Below are positions 8,136 through 22,599 of a DNA stretch of 64,000 nt, piece by piece. The notes under the pieces are model-generated. The model saw nothing but the letters and a program-made list of their open reading frames with translations. It was not told the origin of the DNA and ran no database searches. The position numbers were made by a program, and so were the translations under genes. Origin of the DNA: Spirochaetaceae bacterium (GTDB lineage Bacteria; Spirochaetota; Spirochaetia; SZUA-6; Bin103); assembly GCA_028821475.1 (NCBI GenBank), contig JAPPGB010000083.1:62001-126000 (forward strand). The letters are read 5' to 3'. How positions within the stretch are numbered: the stretch's first letter is position 1; every line of letters begins with the position of its first letter.

Positions 8136-9893
8136 TCACCGCCGCACGGCGTCGCAGTACACCAGTTCCCAGCCGTGGAAGACCACGACCAAACCGGTAA
8201 AGCGCACGCCCGGAAACTGCCGCGCCAGACGCTCGTCCGCCAGATACCGCAGGAGCTGCGCCTGCGCCTCCTCGACCGCCGTCGTGACCGCGGCCTGATC
8301 CGCCGACTCGGAACGCGCGCGATACTTCAGCTCGATCAGGTAGCCGCGTTGCAGATGCGGGTAGCGGGCGATCAGCGGCTCCAGCGCGATATCCGCATGG
8401 CCCTTGCCCAGTTCCGCCTCCGAGCGGAACACGTAGTAGTCGGTCACGCTCAGGTAGGCGGCCAGGAACCCCTGTATGACCTTCTCGCCACTGATGTAGT
8501 CGAGTATCCCGGTCTGCCGCGCGATCGCCTCGCTCAGGAACTCCAGTACCGGTCGCCACTCGCCCGCGTTGGCCATCCGCATCATCAACTGCTCGAACCG
8601 GAACAGGTTGACCGCGAACACCCCCACGTCGCGGTAGGCGTCGCGCAGGTAGCCGTACATCAGCCGCTTCACGGTCTGGTTCGGGATCGCCAGCCGCGGC
8701 ACCCGCTGCACCACGTCGCGGATGCTCAGCAGCCCGAAGTAGTGCAGCAGGGAGAAGAAGTTCTCCTGCTTGGTGAGGTCCTGCAGCGGAAAGCCGGGCC
8801 GAATGCGGGTGTCCACCTGCTCCTCGCCGATGACGTCGCGCAGCAGGTCGAAGTTGCCGTTCAGTTGCCGCCCGGTCACCAGCAGGTGGCGCAGCTTGCC
8901 ATAGTCGATGCGCACGTTGGTGTCGATCAGTTCGTCCGGCACCTCTCGGTTCGGCATCGAGTGCTTCAGGTAGTACAACACCATGTCGGTGTTGTAGAGA
9001 TCGGTCTCGGCCGCCCTGGCGAAGCGGTAGCCGTTGTACCACTCACCCATGATATCCATGGCCGTAGCGGCGTCCTGGTTGAACACGCCCTGCGCTCGGT
9101 ACGTCTCCACTAGGTCCCGTACCTCCGGCTCGGTGAAGCCGACCATCTCGTTGAAGTCCGGTTCCAGGCTGATGTTGGTGCCGATGTTGAAGCCGCTGGT
9201 CACGTCGTCCATGGTGACCGGCGACACCCCGGTGATGAACAGCCGCTCCAGGCCGCCGCCGCTACGGTCCGCGCCGGACTTCAGGGTGGCGAAGAAGTTG
9301 CGGTAGAAGCCGCCGCCGTGGGTGAACGAGTGGTACGCCTCGGCGCCGTGGTACGCCAGCACCGTGTTGGCGAAGTTGTCGTACTCGTCGATCAGCACGT
9401 ACAGCGGGATTTCATGGTCGCCCGCGTACCGGAACAACTCGGAGAGCTTGGTGGCGATGGAGGGCGGCGCGAGGATATCCCGCATCGCCGCTTCCGGAAA
9501 CAGGTCGGGATGGCGACGCAGCGTGCCCCGGAGTTCGATCATGCAGTACGTTTCGAACTCCCGCTCCAGCGTTTCCAGCTTGTCGTTGACCGCCGAGAAG
9601 TTGAAGCGCAGGGTGACGTAGCGGCTCTGTTCCCCGGTCGGCTTCCGCCCGATGTCGGTGCCGGCGAAGGTGCCGTCGAAGTCGTCCGCCCAGAAGCGGT
9701 CGTAGTAGTTCTCCAGCAGGGAGATCCACAGCGACTTGCCGAACCGGCGCGGGCGGATCAGGAAGACGTAGTCCTCCCGCTCCAGGCGCCGCAGGAAGCG
9801 GGTCTTGTCGACGTACAGCCACCGGTTCCGGCGGATGCGCCTGAAGTCGGCCTGACCGTAGGGAATGCGCGGGTGCGTGGGTGGCGTGCTCAC
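8136..9893 (-). CDS. AAA-ATPase-like / PD-(D/E)XK nuclease protein (first of three)
   Basis: The protein (585 residues) has an N-terminal AAA-ATPase-like domain (PF09820 type). Its P-loop is embedded in LIRPRRFGKSLWISLL (GKS at residues 52–54), and a Walker B-like motif reads LIDEYDN. The C-terminal domain is of the PD-(D/E)XK nuclease type, with a conserved Asp in GHADIALEPL and Glu/Lys in YLIELKYRAR. This family is widespread, often in many copies per genome, and its function is not established; a role in defence or as a selfish element has been suggested. It is a more distant relative of the genes at 29719–31266 and 54456–56021. It ends 22 bases from the aldolase gene, which converges on it. 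Confidence 0.82.
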   Translation of the reverse strand: MSTPPTHPRIPYGQADFRRIRRNRWLYVDKTRFLRRLEREDYVFLIRPRRFGKSLWISLLENYYDRFWADDFDGTFAGTDIGRKPTGEQSRYVTLRFNFSAVNDKLETLEREFETYCMIELRGTLRRHPDLFPEAAMRDILAPPSIATKLSELFRYAGDHEIPLYVLIDEYDNFANTVLAYHGAEAYHSFTHGGGFYRNFFATLKSGADRSGGGLERLFITGVSPVTMDDVTSGFNIGTNISLEPDFNEMVGFTEPEVRDLVETYRAQGVFNQDAATAMDIMGEWYNGYRFARAAETDLYNTDMVLYYLKHSMPNREVPDELIDTNVRIDYGKLRHLLVTGRQLNGNFDLLRDVIGEEQVDTRIRPGFPLQDLTKQENFFSLLHYFGLLSIRDVVQRVPRLAIPNQTVKRLMYGYLRDAYRDVGVFAVNLFRFEQLMMRMANAGEWRPVLEFLSEAIARQTGILDYISGEKVIQGFLAAYLSVTDYYVFRSEAELGKGHADIALEPLIARYPHLQRGYLIELKYRARSESADQAAVTTAVEEAQAQLLRYLADERLARQFPGVRFTGLVVVFHGWELVYCDAVRR

Positions 9894-9974
9894 TACTGTA
9901 GCCTGAGCCAGGCTCCGGCACTGACTCTATCGTCTCCAGGTGCGACGCGCAACGGAGCCGCAACGGGGCGGCAC

Positions 9975-10571
9975 GGTCACTCCGCGACACGGAAGACCGA
10001 TTCGGCTGCCGACTTCCTGGGGCGGTCGGTCGCCATCATCGGCCTGGCCACGCCGAACTTCTGGCTGGGAATTATGGTCATGATCTTCCCGGCAATCTGG
10101 TGGGGCTGGGCGCCGCCGCTGGAGCTGGTTTCTTTCACCGAAGACCCGCTGGGGAATCTGGCGGTGTTCTTCATCCCCAGCCTGATTCTGGGGACGGCCT
10201 CGGCAGCCGCCACCATGCGGATGACGCGCACCATGATGCTGGAGGTGCTCCGGCAGGATTTTGTCAGGACGGCCTGGGCGAAGGGCTTGCGGGAGCGGAC
10301 CGTGGTGGTCCGACACGCCGTCAAGAACGCACTCATCCCGGTGGTGTCCCTGATCGGCCTGCAGTTGCCGATCCTGGTCGGGGGCGCCGTGATCATGGAG
10401 AACATCTTCAACCTGCCGGGGCTCGGGCGCCTACTGCTGAATGCCCTCAACGACCGAGACTACCCGATGGTCTCCGGCATCAACCTGTTCTTCGCCACCG
10501 GGGTGGTGGTGATCAATCTGCTCATCGACCTGGTCTACGCGCTCTTGGACCCGAGGGTCCGCTATCACTGA
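9975..10571 (+). pseudogene. 5'-truncated peptide ABC permease (dppB-like remnant)
   Basis: The reading frame from about 9975 encodes the C-terminal half of a DppB/OppB-type permease, beginning near HSATRKTDSAADFLGRSVAI and ending LLDPRVRYH. By alignment with the intact permease at 16057–17046, about 140 N-terminal residues are missing, including the first membrane segments. No suitable start codon or ribosome binding site lies at the new end. The cytoplasmic coupling loop (RTAWAKGLRERTVVVRHAVKNALIP) is kept. The gene is abruptly joined to the flank of the AAA/PD-(D/E)XK gene, so a deletion or rearrangement removed its 5' half. Confidence 0.85.
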
Positions 10572-10793
10572 GTTGTTTCGCAGACTGGTCAGGGACAAGC
10601 CGTTGAGCATCATCGTTGAGGTCGTCATCGATGCCAGGGAGCGCTATGACTGACTTCTTTCGCAGACTGGTCAGGGACAAGCCGTTAAGCATCATCGTTG
10701 GGGTCGTCATCGATGCCAGGGAGCGCTATGACTGACTTCTTTCGCCGGCTGGTCAAGGAGAAGCCACTGAGCATCGTCGCCGGGGTGGTCATC
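10562..10793 (+). repeat. 82-bp tandem repeat at the dppB/dppC junction (two full copies plus a partial)
   Basis: The interval 10562–10643 is repeated at 10644–10725 with five mismatches, and a third, more diverged partial copy starts at 10726 and covers the true dppC start up to about 10793. Each unit contains the first 20 or so codons of dppC followed by codons resembling the last residues of a dppB gene (IDARERYD then stop, compare LLDPRVRYH). The second copy encodes a 29-residue mini-ORF from ATG 10646 that stops at 10733–10735, just past the dppC start at 10728. In the first copy the ATG is ATC. The units look like collapsed dppB–dppC junctions. Confidence 0.9.
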
Positions 10794-11286
10794 CTGCTGT
10801 TGATCCTGGTGGCGATCTTTGCCGATGTGCTGGCGCCTTACTCGCATGATGAAGTCAATATCGTGGACCGGATGCAGGCGCCCTCCAACCGGTACCTGTT
10901 GGGGACCGACCAGTTGGGACGCGACCTGCTGAGCCGCCTCGTGTTCGGGGCCCGAATATCGCTGACCGTCGGTCTGGCGGCGACCACCGTCAACGTCGTG
11001 GTGGCGGTGCTGATCGGCGGCATCTCGGGATTCTTCGGCGGTCGACTCGACCTGGCGATGCAGCGCTTCGTCGACGCCTGGATGGCGTTCCCGGGGCTGC
11101 TGCTGTTGCTCACCATCATGTCGCTGGTGGGGCGGGGGTTGCCGCAGATCATCGTGGTGCTGGGGGTAACGGGCGGCATCGGCGGCTCGCGAGTGGTCCG
11201 CGGCGCGGTGATCGGGGTCAAGGAGAATGCCTACTTTCAGGCGGCCGAGGCGATCGCGCTACGCCGGCCTCATGGGCTGGTACGAC
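10728..11286 (+). pseudogene. 3'-truncated peptide ABC permease (dppC-like remnant)
   Basis: From ATG 10728 the sequence encodes a DppC/OppC-type permease: MTDFFRRLVKEKPLSIVAGV, then the N-terminal membrane segment, LLGTDQLGRDLLSRLVFGAR and SRVVRGAVIGVKENAYFQAA. Homology to the intact permease at 17043–17981 stops soon after AAEAIA (near 11255–11286), with local frame disturbance, so the last 130 or so residues are missing. The frame then runs without a stop into the yefM antitoxin gene, making a 302-codon chimeric ORF. Together with the truncated dppB upstream, this is a dead copy of a peptide-importer operon. Confidence 0.83.
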
Positions 11287-11295
11287 ACGTCGAGA

Positions 11296-11335
11296 TTGAC
11301 AGGCAGGCCGGCTTCTTGTACCGTTTTCCTGTACC
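11296..11335 (+). promoter_or_regulatory. putative promoter and operator of yefM-yoeB
   Basis: A perfect TTGACA lies at 11296–11301, with a weak -10 (TACCGT, 11319–11324) 17 bases downstream. Two TGTACC half-sites at 11317–11322 and 11330–11335 overlap or follow the -10. YefM-type antitoxins are known to bind pairs of TGTACA-like hexamers, so this fits autorepression of the module. It lies 14 bases before the antitoxin start. Confidence 0.5.
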
Positions 11336-11348
11336 AGAGGGACTCCCG

Positions 11349-11633
11349 ATGATCTACGAAACCACCTACAGCAATGCGCGTGCCCACTTGGCGTCGCTTA
11401 TGGATCAGGTTACCGACACCCGCGAACCGATCCTGATTCGCCGGCGTGGGGCGGAACCGGTCGCCCTGGTTGCAGCCGGTGAGCTTGCCGGGTGGATGGA
11501 GACCGCCTACCTGCTCCGCTCTCCCAAGAATGCACAGCGCCTGTTGGACGGCAACCGCCGTGCCGCCGCCGAGGAAGGCATTCCACTCAGCATTGAACAA
11601 CTCCGCGAACGACTCGGCCTCGAAGGCGCGTGA
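11349..11633 (+). CDS. yefM: YefM/Phd-family antitoxin
   Basis: This 94-residue antitoxin starts MIYETTYSNARAHLASLMDQ and contains PILIRRRGAEPVALVAAGEL, the N-terminal DNA-binding dimer of the Phd/YefM fold. The charged C-terminal tail should wrap around the toxin. The ATG at 11349 is chosen because it matches the family N-terminus and has its own regulatory site upstream. The same frame is open back into the decayed dppC gene, which is a coincidence of the fusion point. The antitoxin stop overlaps the toxin start by 4 bases. It should neutralise YoeB and repress the operon. Confidence 0.9.
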   Translation: MIYETTYSNARAHLASLMDQVTDTREPILIRRRGAEPVALVAAGELAGWMETAYLLRSPKNAQRLLDGNRRAAAEEGIPLSIEQLRERLGLEGA

Positions 11634-11908
11634 GGGAGGCTCGCCGCCGGAATGCGCTCTTCGACCAGAACTGCCTGCACGAATTGGAGCACCGGGTCCG
11701 CACCGACCGGCGGCGCGCGCTGCGCATCCTCAAACTGATCGAAGCGGTACTCCGGGACCCCTTCGGCGGACCGGGTAAACCGGAACCGCTCCGAGGACAG
11801 CTCGCCGGCTCCTGGTCCCGGCGCATCGACCAGGAACACCGTCTGGTCTATCGAGTCGACACAGCGACCGTGCGATTTATCGCGGCACGGTACCACTACG
11901 GATCGTAA
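11630..11908 (+). CDS. yoeB: YoeB/Txe-family mRNA interferase toxin
   Basis: The 92-residue product has the RelE-like fold of YoeB, a ribosome-dependent mRNA endonuclease. The family motif is clear in GKPEPLRGQLAGSWSRRIDQ followed by EHRLVYRVD, and the C-terminus ends AARYHYGS, which carries the conserved His-Tyr pair of the active site. It starts with GTG at 11630, overlapping the antitoxin stop (GTGA), so the two are translationally coupled with antitoxin first. All expected regions are present, so the toxin looks intact. Confidence 0.92.
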   Translation: MREARRRNALFDQNCLHELEHRVRTDRRRALRILKLIEAVLRDPFGGPGKPEPLRGQLAGSWSRRIDQEHRLVYRVDTATVRFIAARYHYGS

Positions 11909-14121: not shown

Positions 14122-14504
14122 TCGTTCTCGACACCAGCGTAGTCATCGATCTGTTCATCGACGGCGATGCCGCCGACGCAACCGATGCGATCATTGGGCT
14201 CGGTGAAGGCGCGCTATCCGCCATCACGGTGTTCGAACTGCTCTCCGGCGTGCGCGATCCCGCACACCTGCACCAGCGGCGCGAACTGATCGACACCTGC
14301 CACGTGCTGGAGGTGTCTCGTGAAGTGTCGTTCCGCGCGGCGGAGCTCTATTCCCACCTGCGCGATGCCGGACAACTGATTCAAAACGAGGATCTGCTTA
14401 TCGCCGCCACGGCACTGGTGCGACGCTGTCCACTTCACACCCTCAACCGCAGGCACTACCAGAGAGTCCCCTCACTCAGGCTGCACGAGTGGAGCGCGGG
14501 ATGA
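14118..14504 (+). CDS. vapC: VapC-family PIN-domain ribonuclease toxin
   Basis: The 128-residue product is a PIN-domain endoribonuclease. It begins MIVLDTSVVIDLFIDG with the first catalytic aspartate at residue 5. The mid-domain glutamate lies in SAITVFELLSGV and the later acidic residue in IQNEDLLIAATAL, so the acidic cluster that binds magnesium is intact. It starts with GTG overlapping the antitoxin stop. The stop in turn overlaps the start of the glycosidase-like gene (ATGA at 14501), so the latter may be read through from the TA transcript. Such toxins cleave tRNA or rRNA; the target is unknown. Confidence 0.9.
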   Translation: MIVLDTSVVIDLFIDGDAADATDAIIGLGEGALSAITVFELLSGVRDPAHLHQRRELIDTCHVLEVSREVSFRAAELYSHLRDAGQLIQNEDLLIAATALVRRCPLHTLNRRHYQRVPSLRLHEWSAG

Positions 14505-15940
14505 GCATGAAACAACGGCACCTGGTGCTCGATTCGCGGTTGATCGAACGCGCCGACAACGCAACGCTGTGCGTCGCCGAGGCGGCCAAGAGTGCGGCGA
14601 ACCCGCTGTTCGGGGAGGATCGGCCGTGGGAGATGCGCTTCGACAACCTGTATCCCAACGTGCTGTGGGACGCCGAGGAGCAGCTCTACAAGTGCTGGTA
14701 CAGCCCGTTCTGCGTCGACTTCCGGTCAGGAGGCATGACCCTCGAACAGCGGCAAGCCACCCTCTACAGCGGCCCACCCGACCGCGATATGGCACTCTGC
14801 TATGCCACCTCGCGCGACGGCATCGCGTGGCAGAAGCCGGAACTCGGCCTGGTCGACTACCGGGGCAGCCGGGCCAACAACATCGTGCTGCGCGGGCCGC
14901 ACGGCGCCGGGTTGGTCAAGGATGCGCACGAAACCGATCCCGCCCGGCGCTACAAGATGTTCACTTCGCTCGATGAGCAGGAGCTGGCGGTGGCGTTCTC
15001 TGCGGACGGCATTCGCTGGGGCCGGTTCCACCCCTGCCCCGCCGTCAACCCGTACCAGGTGGACGGCACCCACTACCACGCGCTGTGGGTGGAGGAGCGC
15101 GGCGAGTACGTCGGCTTTACGCGGCTGCGCGACCCGCGCACCGCCGGCGCCGCCGCGGTCGACGGCATCCGCGGCGCCTGGCCGCCGCGCCAGGTGGGCC
15201 GCACCGCGAGCACCGACTTCCTGCACTGGAGCCCGGCCACGGCCGTGCTGGAGGGCACCGACGAGAACCTGCAGATCTACTCGATGCCGGTGTTCCGACA
15301 CGGCAACCTGTATCTCGGCCTGCCGGCGATCCACGACCAGCACACCGACCGGGTGTGGACCGAGCTCGCCTGGAGCCCCGACACCGTCACCTGGCACCGC
15401 GTCTGCCCCGGCTCGCCGCTCATCGCCAACGCCAACCTGACCGGCAGTTATGATTGGGGCTGCGCCTACGCCGCCGCCTACCCGGTGATCCTGCACGACG
15501 AGATCCGCCTCTACTACGGCGCCAGCAACTTTCAGCACACGAGCTGGCGCGACGGCTTCCTGTGCCTGGCGACGCTGCGTCCCGACGGGTTCGCATACTA
15601 CGAGCAGGCCCGCGGCGACCGTCCTGCCGTCCTGGAAACCGCCCCGTTGTCCTCCAGCGGCGCCGCCCTGCGCGTCACCGCCGACGTGTCGCCGATCGGC
15701 TCGCTCGACATCGCCGTGCTCGAATCCGAGGCAAACCACATCCTCGCCCAAGGACAGGTAACCGGCACCGCCACCGACGGCACCGTGACCTGGAGCGACC
15801 CGCCCGCCGGTGTGCTGGCGGGCCGCGCCGTCCGCCTCCGCTTCACGCTTAACGGCGCCCGCCTCTACTCGTTCAGCTTCGAGTCCGACACCGCCCGCGC
15901 GCTCGATTCACCGGTTGTGCGCCGCAATGCCGGCCGTTAA
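14501..15940 (+). CDS. GH32/43-like beta-propeller glycosidase family protein
   Basis: The protein (479 residues) has recurring sequence blocks typical of five-bladed beta-propeller glycosidases and related proteins, such as LYKCWYSPFC, DMALCYATSRDGIAWQKPEL, ELAVAFSADGIRWGRFHPCP and TELAWSPDTVTWHR, where an aspartate-glycine turn and tryptophan recur once per blade. The C-terminal 100 residues look like a beta-sandwich (RAVRLRFTLNGARLYSFSFE). No signal peptide is seen. I cannot identify the catalytic acids with confidence. The ATG overlaps the vapC stop by 4 bases. It may process a sugar taken up by a nearby transporter, but this is speculation. Confidence 0.65.
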   Translation: MSMKQRHLVLDSRLIERADNATLCVAEAAKSAANPLFGEDRPWEMRFDNLYPNVLWDAEEQLYKCWYSPFCVDFRSGGMTLEQRQATLYSGPPDRDMALCYATSRDGIAWQKPELGLVDYRGSRANNIVLRGPHGAGLVKDAHETDPARRYKMFTSLDEQELAVAFSADGIRWGRFHPCPAVNPYQVDGTHYHALWVEERGEYVGFTRLRDPRTAGAAAVDGIRGAWPPRQVGRTASTDFLHWSPATAVLEGTDENLQIYSMPVFRHGNLYLGLPAIHDQHTDRVWTELAWSPDTVTWHRVCPGSPLIANANLTGSYDWGCAYAAAYPVILHDEIRLYYGASNFQHTSWRDGFLCLATLRPDGFAYYEQARGDRPAVLETAPLSSSGAALRVTADVSPIGSLDIAVLESEANHILAQGQVTGTATDGTVTWSDPPAGVLAGRAVRLRFTLNGARLYSFSFESDTARALDSPVVRRNAGR

Positions 15941-15964
15941 GATCGGCCTGCCCCTCGGGGACCG

Positions 15965-16121
15965 AAGGATGGAAGGTTGCGCGCATACATAATTCGGCGG
16001 CTGCTGCTGATGATCCCGACGGCGTTCCTTATCAGCGTGATACCAAGGATGGAAGGTTGCGCGCGTACATAATCCGCCGGCTACTGCTTATGATCCCGAC
16101 GGCGTTCCTCATCAGCGTGAT
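15965..16121 (+). repeat. 80-bp tandem duplication of the dppB 5' end
   Basis: A 77-base segment at 15965–16041 is repeated at 16045–16121 (period 80). Each copy has an AAGGA ribosome binding site, a TTG start and the next 20 codons, encoding MRAYIIRRLLLMIPTAFLIS. The six differences (in the codons for Ala, Ile, Arg, Leu, Leu, Leu) are all synonymous third-position changes. The first copy continues to a stop at 16070–16072, giving a 31-codon mini-ORF that overlaps the true start at 16057. Confidence 0.93.
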
Positions 16122-17046
16122 GTTGTTTCTGCTCATGCGCCTCGTCCCCGGGGACGTGATCGACGTGATGATCGCCCAGTTGGCCGAATCGGCAGAGGAG
16201 ATCGAGCTCGACCGCGAGGATCTGGAACGCAAGCTCGGCCTCGACGCGCCGCTGATCGTCCAGTACGGACGATTTCTCGGCGTGGCGCCCAACGTGGACG
16301 GCCAGGTCAGCGGCGTGCTGCAGGGCGACTTCGGCACCTCCTGGCGGGAGCGCCTGACCGTGACCGAGCTGCTGTTCAAGAAGATACCGGTAACCATGGA
16401 GCTCGGGCTGATGGGCCTGATCATCGCGCAGCTCATCGCCATCCCGATCGGCGTCTACTCCGCCCTGCGGCAGGATACCTGGGGCGACTACGTGGGGCGC
16501 AGCTTCGCGATCCTGTCGATCTCGGTGCCCGGCTTCTGGCTGGCGACGATGGTGATCGTGTACCCGTCGATCTGGTGGGGCTACATGCCTTCCATCTGGC
16601 TGATCAAGTTCGCCGACGACCCGATGGGCAACATCAAGATGTTCATCGTGCCCGCCATCGTGCTGGCGCTGGCCATGGCCGGCGGCACCATGCGCATGAC
16701 CCGGACCATGACCCTGGAGGTGATCCGCAACGACTACATCAGGACGGCGTGGGCGAAGGGGCTGGCCGAGGCCCTGGTGGTGAGCCGGCACGCGCTCAAG
16801 AACGCGTTCATCCCCGTGGTCACCATCGTCGGCCTGCAGATACCGATCCTGATCGGCGGCACGGTGATCATCGAGCAGATCTTCATGCTGCCCGGCATGG
16901 GGCGGCTGATCGTGGAGTCGCTGCTGGTGCGCGATTACCCGGTGGTAATGGGCATCATGCTGTTCTTCAGCATCGGCCTGATGCTGACCAACCTGGTGGT
17001 GGATCTCACCTACGGCTTCCTGGACCCGAGGATCCGCTCGTCATGA
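16057..17046 (+). CDS. peptide/nickel-type ABC transporter permease (DppB family)
   Basis: This 329-residue inner-membrane permease is of the DppB/OppB type, half of the channel of a binding-protein-dependent importer for peptides or other amphipathic solutes. The first membrane helix begins at MRAYIIRRLLLMIPTAFLIS, and the coupling loop that contacts the ATPase is seen in AKGLAEALVVSRHALKNAFI. The start is TTG at 16057 with AAGGA seven bases upstream; no better start exists. A tandem copy of this start region lies just upstream. The stop overlaps the next gene (ATGA at 17043). It is intact, unlike the remnant at 9975–10571. Confidence 0.9.
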   Translation: MRAYIIRRLLLMIPTAFLISVMLFLLMRLVPGDVIDVMIAQLAESAEEIELDREDLERKLGLDAPLIVQYGRFLGVAPNVDGQVSGVLQGDFGTSWRERLTVTELLFKKIPVTMELGLMGLIIAQLIAIPIGVYSALRQDTWGDYVGRSFAILSISVPGFWLATMVIVYPSIWWGYMPSIWLIKFADDPMGNIKMFIVPAIVLALAMAGGTMRMTRTMTLEVIRNDYIRTAWAKGLAEALVVSRHALKNAFIPVVTIVGLQIPILIGGTVIIEQIFMLPGMGRLIVESLLVRDYPVVMGIMLFFSIGLMLTNLVVDLTYGFLDPRIRSS

Positions 17047-17981
17047 GCAGTGTCGGGATGCCGGAGAGCGTGCGCCGGTCGGCCGTGGTCACATTCTTCC
17101 GGCGCATCGGCAAGGAGAAGCCGCTCGGCACCGTGGGTGCCGTGATCACCGCGCTGCTGCTGCTGGTCGGGATTTTCGCCGACGTGCTGGCGCCGTACGG
17201 GATGAACGAAACCAACATGGAGCAGCCGTTGGCCTCCCCCTCCGACAGCAACTGGCTGGGCACCGACGACCTGGGCCGCGACGTGTTGACGCGGGTCATC
17301 TACGGCGCGCGGGTGTCGGTGATCGTGGGCCTGGCGGGCGCCACCCTTGCCACTTTGATCTCCCTCCTGATCGGTCTCATATCGGGTTACCTGGGCGGCA
17401 CCTTCGACCTGCTGACCCAGCGGCTGGTCGACGCCTGGATGTCGCTGCCGGACCTGATCGTGCTGATGGTGATCATCGCGTTCCTCGGCGGCGGCATGGT
17501 GCCGATCATCGTGGTGCTCGGCGTGGCGGGGGGCATCACCGGCTCGCGCATCATCCGCGGCGCGGTGATCAGCACCAAGGAGGACGCCTACGTGACCGCG
17601 GCGTCGGCGATCGGCGGGCGCACCAGCCGGGTTCTGCTGCGCCACATTCTGCCCAACGTGCTCGCGCCCGCGGTGATCCTGCTCACGCTGCGCATTCCGG
17701 CGATCATCCTCTCCGAGGCCAGCCTCAGCTTCCTCGGCTTCGGCATCCAGCCGCCGTTCCCGAGTTGGGGTGCCATGCTCAGCGGCCGCAGCCGCGAGTT
17801 CATGTTCGTGGCGCCGTGGACGGTGCTGTGGCCGGGCCTCGCCCTCGCCACCGTCGTGTACGGCACCAACATGTTCGGCGACGCCGCCCGCGACATCCTC
17901 GACCCCAAGCTGCGCGGCGGCGTCGGCCGCTTCAGCGCCAAGGTGGTCAGGACGGCCCGGCGCGTCCGGTCCAAGCGCTGA
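17043..17981 (+). CDS. peptide/nickel-type ABC transporter permease (DppC family)
   Basis: The 312-residue product is the second permease, of the DppC/OppC type. It shows the N-terminal segment TFFRRIGKEKPLGTVGAVIT, the periplasmic motif WLGTDDLGRDVLTRVIYGAR and the cytoplasmic coupling region (AIGGRTSRVLLRHILPNVLA) followed by SEASLSFLGFGIQPPFPSWG. The ATG at 17043 overlaps the dppB stop by 4 bases. With DppB it forms the membrane channel. No ATPase gene follows, so the energising subunits must be encoded elsewhere. Confidence 0.92.
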   Translation: MSSVGMPESVRRSAVVTFFRRIGKEKPLGTVGAVITALLLLVGIFADVLAPYGMNETNMEQPLASPSDSNWLGTDDLGRDVLTRVIYGARVSVIVGLAGATLATLISLLIGLISGYLGGTFDLLTQRLVDAWMSLPDLIVLMVIIAFLGGGMVPIIVVLGVAGGITGSRIIRGAVISTKEDAYVTAASAIGGRTSRVLLRHILPNVLAPAVILLTLRIPAIILSEASLSFLGFGIQPPFPSWGAMLSGRSREFMFVAPWTVLWPGLALATVVYGTNMFGDAARDILDPKLRGGVGRFSAKVVRTARRVRSKR

Positions 17982-18009
17982 CCCGCGCCACGGGCGCCGC
18001 CCGGCGAGT

Positions 18010-18039
18010 TTGACAGGAGGCGCCGGCGGCCGGTAGCTT
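18010..18039 (+). promoter_or_regulatory. possible promoter for the binding-protein gene
   Basis: A perfect TTGACA at 18010–18015 is followed after 18 bases by TAGCTT (18034–18039), a weak -10. It would let the binding protein be made in excess over the permeases, as is usual for such importers. A short GC-rich inverted repeat lies between it and the start codon. Confidence 0.35.
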
Positions 18040-18082
18040 CCCCATGCGGCCGTTTCGGCCGGAATTCAACAGGAGGTATTGC

Positions 18083-19798
18083 ATGAACAAGACCCATGCG
18101 ATTGCCGCGGTGCTTCTCGCCGCCGCGGCAATGTGGCTCTCCGCGGCCGGAGAGCAAGATAGCGAGATGGCGGCCGCCGGCGACGGCAGCCCGCAGTACG
18201 GGGGCACCCTGACCGCGGTCAGCGCCGCCTTCGTGATCGGCCCGGAGAGCCCCGACCCGGCTGACGGTCAGGGCCACTCGACGCTCTTTCTGTCGCTGAT
18301 CCAGGAGCGCCCGCGGTTCGGCGACCACGAGAAATTCGGTCCCAAGGGCACCGGCGAGTATCCCTTTACCCTGGTCGGCCCGATGCCCGACAAGTACGCT
18401 CGCGGGCTGCTGCTGGAGAGTTGGGACGTCACGCCCGAGCAACACACCTGGCACCTGCGCAAGGGCGTCATGTGGGCGGCGGACAACGTCGACTTCATGG
18501 AGAACCGCGAGATGGTCGCCGACGACGTGGTAGCCGACCTGAAGTACTACCGCGAGTCGCCCGCCGGGGCGCGCTTCAAGGGCGTGTCCGGCGACATCAC
18601 CGCCACCGACAGCCACACCGTGGTGATCGAGTTCACCGAACTCGACATCGGCATGCTGAACATCCTCACGATGGGCGGGACGACCGCCATTTCGCCCCCC
18701 GAGATGGAGGCCGCGGGCATGGACAAGTGGGCAAACCAGGTGGGCACCGGACCGTTCATGTTCGACGACTACGAGATCGACTCGCACATGACCTACGAGC
18801 GCAATCCGAACTACTGGGACAAGACCACCATCGATGGACAGGAGTACCAGCTCCCGTTCGTGGACAAGGTAATCGTCCCGATTATTGCCGACGAGGCGTC
18901 TATGGTCGCCGCGCTGCGCACCGGCAGGGCGGACATGGCCAGCTCGGTGTTCGCCGTGCACTGGCAGACGCTCGACGAGACGGCGCCCGACCTGAACTCG
19001 CACCGGTTTCCGATCTCGTTCGGGTCGACGGCCTACCTGAAGACCACCGAGCCGCCATTCGACAACCGCGACGTGCGCCGCGCCATGATGATCGGCACCG
19101 ACCTGACCGGCTTCCAGAAGCTGCGCCAGGCGGGCGACCTGGAGCTGCCCACGCACTGGTTCCCGGTCGACCCGATCATGCCCTCCTACACGCCGATGGA
19201 CGAGCTGCCGGAAGAGACCCGCATGCTGTACGACTACGACCCGGAGAAGGCGAAGCAGATGCTCGCCGACGCCGGCTACCCGAATGGCTTCACCATCGAC
19301 TACACCACCCTGGGCTGGCCCGAGTTCATGACCGACGGGGCGCTGCTCAAGGACCAGTGGGAGAAGATCGGCGTCACGGTAAACCTGCAGGGCTTCGAGG
19401 CGGCGGTGTGGAGCGCGCACGCGCGCGAGCGCACCTACACCGGCTCGGTCCGGCAGGGCCACTGCGGCGGCTGCCCGGTGACCACGCTGCCGCGGTTCAC
19501 CACCGGGCACACCCGCAACTACACCGACTGGTCCGACCCCAAGTTCGACGCGATGGTGGAGGAACTGACGAAGGAGCTGGATCCGGACCGGCGCAACGAG
19601 ATGATCAAGGAAGCGTCGATCTACCTGCTGAACGAGGTGATCGCGGTTCCGCAGGCAGTCAAGGTGCAGGGCCGCTTCTGGTGGCCGTGGATTCAGAATT
19701 ATTACGGCGAGACCTACCTCGCGAGCACCAACACCTGGCTGGAGCCCTCCGCCTGGGTGTGGATCGACCAGGGCCTGAAGAAGGAGATGGGTTACTAA
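18083..19798 (+). CDS. extracellular solute-binding protein, family 5 (DppA/OppA-like)
   Basis: This 571-residue periplasmic binding protein belongs to the peptide/nickel family 5. A signal peptide (MNKTHAIAAVLLAAAAMWLS, then AAGEQD) precedes the mature domain and has no lipobox cysteine. Family features include LLLESWDVTPEQHTWHLRKG and the closing hinge region near DYDPEKAKQMLADAGYPNGF. The ATG at 18083 has a near-perfect AGGAGG six bases upstream, so the longer reading is rejected. It supplies substrate to the two permeases upstream. The ligand could be an oligopeptide, but family 5 also binds sugars and metals. A strong terminator follows. Confidence 0.92.
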   Translation: MNKTHAIAAVLLAAAAMWLSAAGEQDSEMAAAGDGSPQYGGTLTAVSAAFVIGPESPDPADGQGHSTLFLSLIQERPRFGDHEKFGPKGTGEYPFTLVGPMPDKYARGLLLESWDVTPEQHTWHLRKGVMWAADNVDFMENREMVADDVVADLKYYRESPAGARFKGVSGDITATDSHTVVIEFTELDIGMLNILTMGGTTAISPPEMEAAGMDKWANQVGTGPFMFDDYEIDSHMTYERNPNYWDKTTIDGQEYQLPFVDKVIVPIIADEASMVAALRTGRADMASSVFAVHWQTLDETAPDLNSHRFPISFGSTAYLKTTEPPFDNRDVRRAMMIGTDLTGFQKLRQAGDLELPTHWFPVDPIMPSYTPMDELPEETRMLYDYDPEKAKQMLADAGYPNGFTIDYTTLGWPEFMTDGALLKDQWEKIGVTVNLQGFEAAVWSAHARERTYTGSVRQGHCGGCPVTTLPRFTTGHTRNYTDWSDPKFDAMVEELTKELDPDRRNEMIKEASIYLLNEVIAVPQAVKVQGRFWWPWIQNYYGETYLASTNTWLEPSAWVWIDQGLKKEMGY

Positions 19799-19828
19799 CG
19801 CTCGGATCCCTCGACCAGGGCAATTACG

Positions 19829-19862
19829 CGGCCACGGGAGCGCATCCCGTGGCCGTTTTTTT
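19829..19862 (+). terminator. strong Rho-independent terminator after the dpp-like operon
   Basis: A perfect 10-bp stem (CGGCCACGGG at 19829–19838 with CCCGTGGCCG at 19846–19855) with a 7-base loop is followed by seven T residues (19856–19862). It lies about 30 bases after the binding-protein stop and directly before the convergent ABC ATPase gene. It is the clearest terminator in the window. Confidence 0.93.
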
Positions 19863-19865
19863 GGC

Positions 19866-20892
19866 TCATCCGGCCTCGGCGTTCCAGTCCTGGTAGATGT
19901 CGGCGATCACGTCGTCGATGCGCGAGCGGTGCGTCTCCACGTCGTGGATGGCGCTCTGTGCGGCTGCCTCCTGCAGCAGCGCGGTGATCGGGGTGCGGGC
20001 GGCGTCGAAGGTGTAGTGGTGGCGCCCTCCCTCGCTGCCGGTGAGCCGGACGCCGCCAAGCCGTGGCGGTTCGGCGGTGCCGGTCTCGATGGTCAGGTGG
20101 CGGCGGTCGCCGAAGCGGCGGCGCAGTTCCGTGAAGTCGCCGTCGTAGGCAATGCGGCCGCGGTCGATCAGCACGATGCGCCCGGCGAGCTGCTCCAACT
20201 CGTCCATGTCGTGGCTGGTAAGCATCACGGTGACGCCGCGTTCGCGGTTCAAGGTCTTGATGAAGTCGAGGATGTTGCGCTTGGCGAGCACGTCCAGGCC
20301 GATGGTGGGTTCGTCCAGGAACAGGATCTCCGGCTCGTGCAGCAGCATCAGCGCGATGTCGGCGCGCATCTTCTGGCCCAGGCTGAGCTGGCGCGCCAGG
20401 GTGTGGAAGAACTCGCCGATGCCGAGCAGCTCCTTCACGAAGGCGAGCATCTCCTGGTAGCGCGGGCGCGGGATCTCCCACACCACCCGCTTCCACTCGA
20501 AGCTGGCCGCCACCGGCTGGTCCCACCACAGCTCGGTACGCTGGGCCGAATACCACGCCGATGCGGCGCACGTACGACACGCGCTCGGTCATCGGGTCCA
20601 TGCCGAGGCAGCGCACGGTGCCGGCGCTGGGCGCGAGCACGCTGGACAGCAGTTTGACGGTGGTGGACTTGCCGGCGCCGTTGGGCCCGGCGTAGGCGAC
20701 GATCTCGCCGCTGCGGATCGCCAGGTTCACCCCGCGCAGGGCGTGGATCTCGCGGATCGTGGGCCGGAACAGGTTGGTCAGGACGTCGCGGAACCGCTCC
20801 GAGCGCTGGCGCTGGAAGAAGGTCTTGTCGACCTCCCGCAGCTCAACCGCGATGTCCCCAGGCGATGTAGCGCTGCGATCCGGTCTGTGCAT
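19866..20892 (-). pseudogene. ABC-2 type exporter ATPase gene, interrupted by a frameshift
   Basis: The first frame (from ATG 20892) encodes an ABC ATPase N-terminus with Walker A in YAGPNGAGKSTTVKLLSSVL and continues to RRIGVVFG. A second frame carries the rest: VAASFEWKRV, the signature region RQLSLGQKMRADIALMLL, Walker B in ILFLDEPTIGLD, the switch histidine in MLTSHDMDEL, ending at 19866. Removing one G from the GGG at 20543–20545 (plus strand) would join them as VVFGQRTELWWDQPV, matching the family. The gene is otherwise complete (about 340 residues). Either the exporter is inactive or this is a sequence error. Its 5' end overlaps the permease gene upstream by 50 bases. Confidence 0.85.
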
Positions 20893-21676
20893 AGTGCTCC
20901 ATACCCTTCTTGAATACGAATCCCGCCACCAGCGTCAGCAGCAGCGCGGCCGCCGGCGTGTGCCACAGCCGCGGGGCGGCGATGCCGAGCAGTTGGCGGC
21001 AGGGATACCAGGCGACGAAGCCGACCGGCAGGATGGTGAGCATGCCGGTCAGCGCCACGGCGCTCAAGCCGTCGAGCGGGAACGCCTTGAGCTGGTACAG
21101 GAAGTTCACTGCGCGGCTGCTGATCTCCTCGGCCGCGGCCGGCGCCCAGAACGCCAGCGCACCCCACAGGAACGAGAACGCCAGCGCCACGGTGCAGGAT
21201 GCGAGCAGGTTGGCGCCGAACAGCAGCCACCAATGCACCGGGAAGCCGGCGCCGAGCTGGACGACCGCCCAGGCGGTGATGCCGGCGCCGGTAAGCAGCG
21301 ACCAAGCCCCCGAGAACGGCATGAACCCCTCGGTCAGCAGGCCCATCCACAGCGGCTGGGGTTGCACCAGCAGGTGGTCGAACTGCCCGCGCCCGATGCG
21401 GCGGCTGACGTGCAGCACGTTGTAGCTGAAACCCACGTCCAGGAAGCCGCGCACCAGCGCCGCGTAACCGAGCATGAAGATGACCTGGTCGCGCGACCAC
21501 AGGCCGATGCCCCCGAACCGCTCGGCGAGCAGAAACACCGCGGTGACGCCGGCCAGATTGAGGATCACGTCGGAGACCACGTTGATCAGGAAAAAGCGCA
21601 CGTCCTTGGTCATCCACATGAAGTCGAGGTGAGCCTGCACCCGCCAGCGCGCAAACAAGGTGCGTAATCGAGCCAT
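20843..21676 (-). CDS. ABC-2 family permease (PF06182-like)
   Basis: The 277-residue inner-membrane protein has about six hydrophobic segments and begins with a short cytoplasmic tail (MARLRTLFARWRVQAHLDFM), the pattern of ABC-2 family transporter proteins that act in pairs with a dedicated ATPase. Motifs such as GYAALVRGFLDVGFSYNVLH and RGQFDHLLVQPQP match this group. It lies between the second permease (upstream) and the ATPase gene (overlapping by 50 bases), so the three form one operon. The exported substrate is unknown. Confidence 0.83.
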   Translation of the reverse strand: MARLRTLFARWRVQAHLDFMWMTKDVRFFLINVVSDVILNLAGVTAVFLLAERFGGIGLWSRDQVIFMLGYAALVRGFLDVGFSYNVLHVSRRIGRGQFDHLLVQPQPLWMGLLTEGFMPFSGAWSLLTGAGITAWAVVQLGAGFPVHWWLLFGANLLASCTVALAFSFLWGALAFWAPAAAEEISSRAVNFLYQLKAFPLDGLSAVALTGMLTILPVGFVAWYPCRQLLGIAAPRLWHTPAAALLLTLVAGFVFKKGMEHYAQTGSQRYIAWGHRG

Positions 21677-21699
21677 CGCCGCTCAACCGCCGTGGGCGG

Positions 21700-21744
21700 T
21701 GTTGGCCTGTCGGCCAACAACCGCGGTTCGGCTTGCGCCGAACT
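21700..21744. other. twin tetraloop hairpins between the two exporter permease genes
   Basis: Two back-to-back inverted repeats occupy the gap: TGTTGGCC–tgtc–GGCCAACA (21700–21719) and GTTCGGC–ttgc–GCCGAAC (21726–21743). Each has a 7–8 bp stem and a 4-base loop. Neither is followed by a T-run on the minus strand, so they are not classical terminators. They may stabilise the mRNA or set the ratio of the two permeases. Confidence 0.5.
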
Positions 21745-21789
21745 GCATCGTGTGGGTGTTTACGCCCTTGCTGCCAGCCGCCAAGTCGT

Positions 21790-22599
21790 TCAGCCTCCGT
21801 GGGTTACCAGGCGCTCGCGGTTGCCGCGCCACGTCAGGTGGGCCAGCGGCCACAGGACGGCGGCCCACGCGGCCTGCAGCACGAGCAGGGCCAGCGCATC
21901 GCCGGTGCCGGTGTAGATGCGCAACGGGGCGGAGGCCAGCGCAGCGAACGGCAGGTAACCGAGCACCTCGCCGATTCCCCACGGCATCAGGGAGAGCGGG
22001 ATGACGGCCCCCGACAGCAGCACGCTCAACGCATTGCGGATCTGCATCAGCGCGTACACGTTCTGTTCCAGAACCACCATCAAGCTGGAGAAAAGAAATG
22101 CCAGCGCCGACCCAACGAGGATCGACAGGGCAAGGCTGCAGACGAAAAGCAGCAACGCGCCCGCGCTCGCCGGAAACGGATTGACGCCGAGGAGCGGCGC
22201 GAGACAAATCAACGGCAACGAGACCAGCAGCAGATCGCGCAGTCGGGTCCCGAGCATTTCCGCCGTGAACTGACCGTAAACACTCGCCGGGCGCAGAAAG
22301 CGATTCGCGATGTCGCCGCGCCAGAGCGCATCGTCGAGACTGTTGTTGACCGAGAACTGGCCGGAAAACACCTCCGAAATCAGTGTGTAGGTCAGCACCG
22401 CCGCGCGCGTCATGCCCGACGTCGCTCCGGTCTCCGGCAGCACCGTACGCCACAGCGACAACAGCAGCACCACGCGCAGCAGGCGCAGCCCGAAGTCGCC
22501 CGCCAGCACCCAGCCGCGGTCGTCCAGTGACCGCACCGCCGCCGTGGTCAGCGTCTTGAGATGTTTCCGTGCCGAGCGGAGGTCGATCACTCCTGCCAT
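21790..22599 (-). CDS. ABC-2 family permease, second subunit
   Basis: The 269-residue product (from ATG 22599) is a six-helix membrane protein of the ABC-2 exporter type, with SLWRTVLPETGATSGMTRAA, GQFSVNNSLDDALWRGDIAN and RFLRPASVYGQFTAEMLGTR, features shared with the PF06182-like permease group. It is the first gene of the exporter operon. No good ribosome binding site is seen before the ATG; a GTG at 22590 is an alternative. An inverted repeat (GTTCGT–tcg–ACGAAC, 22610–22624) lies directly upstream and could be an operator. Confidence 0.78.
   Translation of the reverse strand: MAGVIDLRSARKHLKTLTTAAVRSLDDRGWVLAGDFGLRLLRVVLLLSLWRTVLPETGATSGMTRAAVLTYTLISEVFSGQFSVNNSLDDALWRGDIANRFLRPASVYGQFTAEMLGTRLRDLLLVSLPLICLAPLLGVNPFPASAGALLLFVCSLALSILVGSALAFLFSSLMVVLEQNVYALMQIRNALSVLLSGAVIPLSLMPWGIGEVLGYLPFAALASAPLRIYTGTGDALALLVLQAAWAAVLWPLAHLTWRGNRERLVTHGG

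Follow-up and report, generated by a model that had tools for sequence, protein, structure and literature searches.

Short local tandem duplications of bacterial genomes place tens of bases head-to-tail, are lineage-specific, and sit at the edges of genes, where the damage is least. Two described regulatory arrangements use a short open reading frame (ORF) ahead of a gene: in termination-reinitiation translational coupling (e.g. PMC6728339, PMC12548453) the short upstream ORF ends near the live start, and in leader-peptide or uORF attenuators it stands ahead of a transport gene. In the window analyzed here (the whole stretch of 64,000 nt), the start of a dppB-type permease gene is duplicated in front of itself, and the locus resembles each of these systems in the features just named. 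Our literature searches listed no paper describing such gene-start echoes.

A tandem copy of the dppB start differs from the live gene only synonymously

Repeat search and TRF identified a head-to-tail repeat of period 80, comprising an upstream copy (c1, 15965..16041, + strand) and a downstream copy (c2, 16045..16121, + strand) of 77 nt each, identical at 71 of 77 positions (92%). This tandem is beyond chance; the same methods, applied around 15965-16121, found no third copy nearby. c1 contains a leader and the dppB start, and c2 contains the leader and start of the live gene. The leader, AAGGATGGAAGG (15965..15976, + strand in c1), carries a Shine-Dalgarno-like AAGGA 7 nt before the TTG and is unchanged between the copies. 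Among the loci compared, a 20-mer common to the two copies is present at c1 and c2 only. The join is occupied by ACC (16042..16044, + strand), such that the c2 leader reads ACC-AAGG and that of c1 ACCG-AAGG.

From TTG to GTG, the in-frame part spans 21 full codons and two bases and encodes MRAYIIRRLLLMIPTAFLISV in both copies. All six differences are synonymous third-position changes within the dppB start (c1/c2: GCA/GCG, ATT/ATC, CGG/CGC, CTG/CTA, CTG/CTT and CTT/CTC). c1 opens a 31-codon TTG ORF, MRAYIIRRLLLMIPTAFLISVIPRMEGCART (15977..16072, + strand), whose stop begins 13 nt past the live dppB TTG at 16057, inside dppB. The repeat search and codon comparison thereby confirm the two period-80 copies and six synonymous differences of the original prediction, and the ORF list and identical leader confirm its mini-ORF, with the same ribosome-binding site and TTG and a stop 13 bases past the true start.

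The live dppB-type gene (16057..17046, + strand; PF00528, 9e-33; PF19300, 3e-9) encodes a protein 95% identical to that of the closest relative described below. It overlaps by ATGA a dppC-type permease gene (17043..17981, + strand; PF00528, PF12911), after which a Pfam search places a gene for an SBP_bac_5 (family-5 solute-binding) protein. The ORF upstream of the tandem (14489..15940, + strand) had no match in the Pfam search.

The duplication is specific to this lineage and derives from the same gene

The window belongs to an assembly, presumably a metagenome bin, of 5.73 Mb in 183 contigs with some 10-N and 100-N gaps. Among the genomes compared, the closest relative is G002, Spirochaetaceae bacterium bin103 (matching contig MPNH01000032.1; locus L027), which PMC5649159 describes as a Spirochaetaceae bin of the sponge Aplysina aerophoba. 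bin103 has a single dppB start and the same gene order as the window, including the gene upstream of the tandem (aligned to L027 at 87%). By BLAST, window positions 14503-16041 align to L027 3525-5065 and positions 16042-21990 to L027 4986-10980, with the breakpoint at exactly 16041/16042. Because these segments overlap by 80 bp on L027, the extra copy is the only local structural difference. Given the single copy and shared gene order in bin103, the tandem is specific to the window's lineage, having arisen or been acquired since that lineage and bin103 diverged. This is the synteny comparison that the original prediction had proposed; in it, the bin103 start lies about equally far from c1 and c2.

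Both copies carry the same leader and two codon states (CGG and ACG) that bin103 lacks, and they group together against bin103, a weak grouping since it uses 75 sites only. Because bin103 is single-copy and the two copies share these differences from it, c1 is well supported as a copy of the same dppB gene. Using bin103 as the outgroup, GCA, ATT and CGG are private to c1 and CTT to c2, with two sites left without assignment; at least three changes are thus private to c1, none of them nonsynonymous. Synonymous divergence between c1 and c2 is 0.45 (few sites), versus 0.37 between c2 and bin103.

The original prediction envisaged recombination between two dpp-like operons at short shared homology, which would make c1 the stump of a distinct paralogous operon. 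dpp paralogues are indeed numerous, with 16 further dppB-start matches in the same genome. However, the best of these are only ~77% identical to c2 over the start region and have different leaders, as against 92% between c1 and c2, and c1 shares states with c2 against bin103. A donor search across this genome and three related genomes returned no paralogue nearer to c1 than c2 is. At the join (GTGAT|ACCAAGG), comparison with the expected flanks revealed no microhomology. We consequently rejected a distinct paralogous operon as the donor, a history that we now find barely credible.

Probable constraint on the upstream copy

In simulations of an in-situ duplicate with an extra copy free to drift, zero nonsynonymous changes out of six arose with P = 0.004-0.008, or 0.002-0.003 if the 12-nt leader must also stay unchanged; these values apply to a pair chosen for this very pattern and to few codons (21). 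Counting all changes as though in a non-coding copy gives a naive P of ~0.0005. That value overlooks the live copy's own contribution, which is limited to synonymous changes and which our simulated null includes. The absence of nonsynonymous differences is therefore unusual for a neutrally decaying duplicate and not what drift free of coding constraint would be expected to leave, and c1 has probably been coding-constrained for much of its life.

A second gene-start duplicate in this genome serves as an internal control. On contig C172 (L255:18408-18573), Pfam and DNA scans identified an 83-bp duplicate of the start of a PEP_hydrolase-family gene, located after a UPF0261 gene and present as a single copy in bin103. 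Polarized by bin103, this echo has private nonsynonymous changes in five codons versus one synonymous change; the extra copy is thus a decaying duplicate and a good control. The original argument that a non-coding duplicate should not show the c1/c2 pattern therefore holds in direction, supported by the simulation and this control, with less force than the naive value would imply. Its corollary, that the upstream copy evolved as part of a working permease, keeps the element of coding constraint and loses the distinct paralogous operon; that c1 recently lost its body, as the remnant of a tandem copy, is possible.

Other tandems of about 80 bp lie at gene edges

Our tandem scan covered 2.16 Mb of this genome and 0.4 Mb of bin103, such that its period statistics describe part of the genome. 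Seven of 17 array periods fall within 78-83 (P = 0.0005-0.005, depending on the null). This clustering is suggestive only: the sample is small, the same data first drew attention to the class, and some of these seven arrays are wholly or partly within reading frames. Beyond the C172 duplicate, two tandem arrays lie at 3′ gene ends: one of 78/79 bp on a dppC-type gene (C86, L118:5073-5324) and one of 81 bp, with about four copies, on a gene named by eye as selD-like (C5, L131:13441-13764). Neither is repeated in bin103, which matches the gene part or flanks only (for C5, the flanks only).

Within the window, TRF identified 2.9 copies of period 82 where the end of dppB meets the start of dppC in an older, decayed dpp operon (10560..10793, + strand; also L188 and L189). 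Related copies occur in a paralogous operon on contig C96 of the same genome and in bin103 (C81), indicating that this array is older and real. By eye, its copies differ mostly nonsynonymously, and a mini-ORF, MTDFFRRLVRDKPLSIIVGVVIDARERYD, overlaps the dppC start. The mini-ORFs of this array and of C172 terminate at a duplicated stop codon overlapping the start that follows, which periods of 82 and 83 with ATGACTGA and ATGA overlaps, respectively, would predict.

Two further observations concern the surrounding sequence. The decayed dppBC (window 8136-11634) has a dppB without its start, adjoining a multi-copy AAA-ATPase_like/PDDEXK_9 gene, and its dppC frame continues into a short ORF resembling a putative Phd/YefM-type antitoxin. 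Separately, contig C50 (L217:1-10250) holds a CRISPR-like array of ~137 repeats of 36 nt (GTTTCCGCCGGTGAATTCCGGCGGCCTCATTGAAGC) at a spacing of 72-77.

Origin of the upstream copy

Taken as a whole, these results fit three identities for c1: a leader ORF kept by selection, what remains of a tandem operon copy or of an allele from a sister lineage, or, with lower likelihood, a chimera of the assembly. We tentatively favor, at a little short of an even chance, an in-place tandem duplicate of ~80 bp of the gene's own dppB start, arising after the split from bin103 and followed by constraint on c1. The presence of other gene-edge tandems in the same period class and the lack of an N-gap at the join speak for such an event. 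A plain in-place duplication nevertheless requires either selection on c1 or luck, because a freely drifting echo should gain nonsynonymous changes. Also against it are the join without microhomology and a synonymous divergence between c1 and c2 that, at the between-species level, seems old for a lineage-specific duplicate. If luck alone were responsible, c1 would be a functionless 80-bp duplicate; such duplicates do originate and persist, as at C172 and dppC, but the simulated probabilities above make this quite improbable for c1. A direct account of the synonymous-only differences is offered instead by two diverged full operon copies, whether a local tandem or a sister-lineage allele brought in by recombination, with the junction placed 22 codons into one dppB and immediately upstream of the other. 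c1 would then be the stump of a gene working until recently, as in the original prediction except that the donor is the same operon rather than a distant paralogue. Local gene duplications at 85-97% identity are common in this genome, and C136 and C96 carry dpp regions, separated by 7-10 kb, that are 87-91% identical. Yet this assembly contains no second dppB body above 70% identity, it would take coincidence for the 80-bp offset to fall in the period class of the other gene-edge tandems, and the history requires illegitimate joins, as homologous collapse would leave no stump. We regard it as somewhat unlikely.

Alternatively, contigs from two co-occurring strains or species with an overlap of ~80 bp may have been concatenated, in which case the tandem would exist in no cell. 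The fragmentation and N-gaps of the assembly are compatible with such a chimera, and the bin103 assembly (SPAdes 3.5.0 hybrid) contains end-to-end joins with duplicated 73-121 bp overlaps (L160:631 and 3404, L157:2396, L149:16995) suggestive of unresolved contig-end joins in the deposited sequence. Those joins, however, carry error-rich G/C runs, whereas the differences between c1 and c2 are spread and synonymous, and sequence inspection and an N-gap scan detected neither an N-run nor an error signature at the c1/c2 join. The strains would also need near-species-level differences, and no second dppB-body allele was found in the bin. Self-BLAST returned intragenomic duplicates and no clear strain redundancy. 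Moreover, other arrays in the genome have three or four diverged copies or are common to two genomes, and hence are real. A chimera is accordingly unlikely in our judgment, more so than the joining of two operon copies.

Under the in-place duplication that we favor, the most economical event would be one of the ~80-bp tandem duplications recurring at gene edges in this genome, copying the translation-start region of dppB head-to-tail in front of itself after the bin103 split. Both copies would thereafter have accepted synonymous changes only, with c1 probably either translated under constraint or descended from a copy under such constraint. From the geometry of the copies, a possible effect on translation can be proposed: ribosomes could load at the c1 Shine-Dalgarno and TTG, produce a 31-residue peptide that includes the initial hydrophobic segment of DppB, and terminate at 16072, which is 13 nt into dppB. 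They may then reinitiate at the nearby live TTG or compete with the identical ribosome-binding site of the live gene. More speculatively, and as something of a long shot, the lineage may repeatedly make ~80-bp tandems that are kept at gene starts where the mini-ORF feeds the live start, with the dppB mini-ORF under amino-acid selection as a membrane-directed leader tuning permease translation.

If real and not an assembly join, the locus is a modest natural example of a gene whose start has been duplicated in front of it, accompanied by an in-genome control that decays normally, and it hints that ~80-bp duplications recur as a class at the gene edges of this sponge-type spirochaete. It also carries two warnings: gene callers may choose the wrong start at such loci, and the similar-looking echoes in the related bin103 assembly appear to be artefacts.

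Comparison with known systems

Relative to leader-peptide and uORF attenuators, c1 has no regulatory codon run and is absent from bin103. RNA structure at the tandem is less stable than in shuffles (z +1.95), and promoter and terminator scans found no promoter or terminator-like site there; with neither structure beyond shuffles nor a terminator, we rejected an attenuator. Termination-reinitiation coupling is matched more closely by the C172 and dppC echoes, which retain the stop/start overlap (ATGA, and ATGACTGA for dppC). At dppB, in contrast, the c1 stop lies 13 nt inside the gene. The live gene also possesses a complete ribosome-binding site, and the leader ORF ahead of it duplicates its own start. 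From other short local tandem duplications of bacterial genomes, the locus is set apart by the period class of 78-83 in this genome and by differences between c1 and c2 that are all synonymous.
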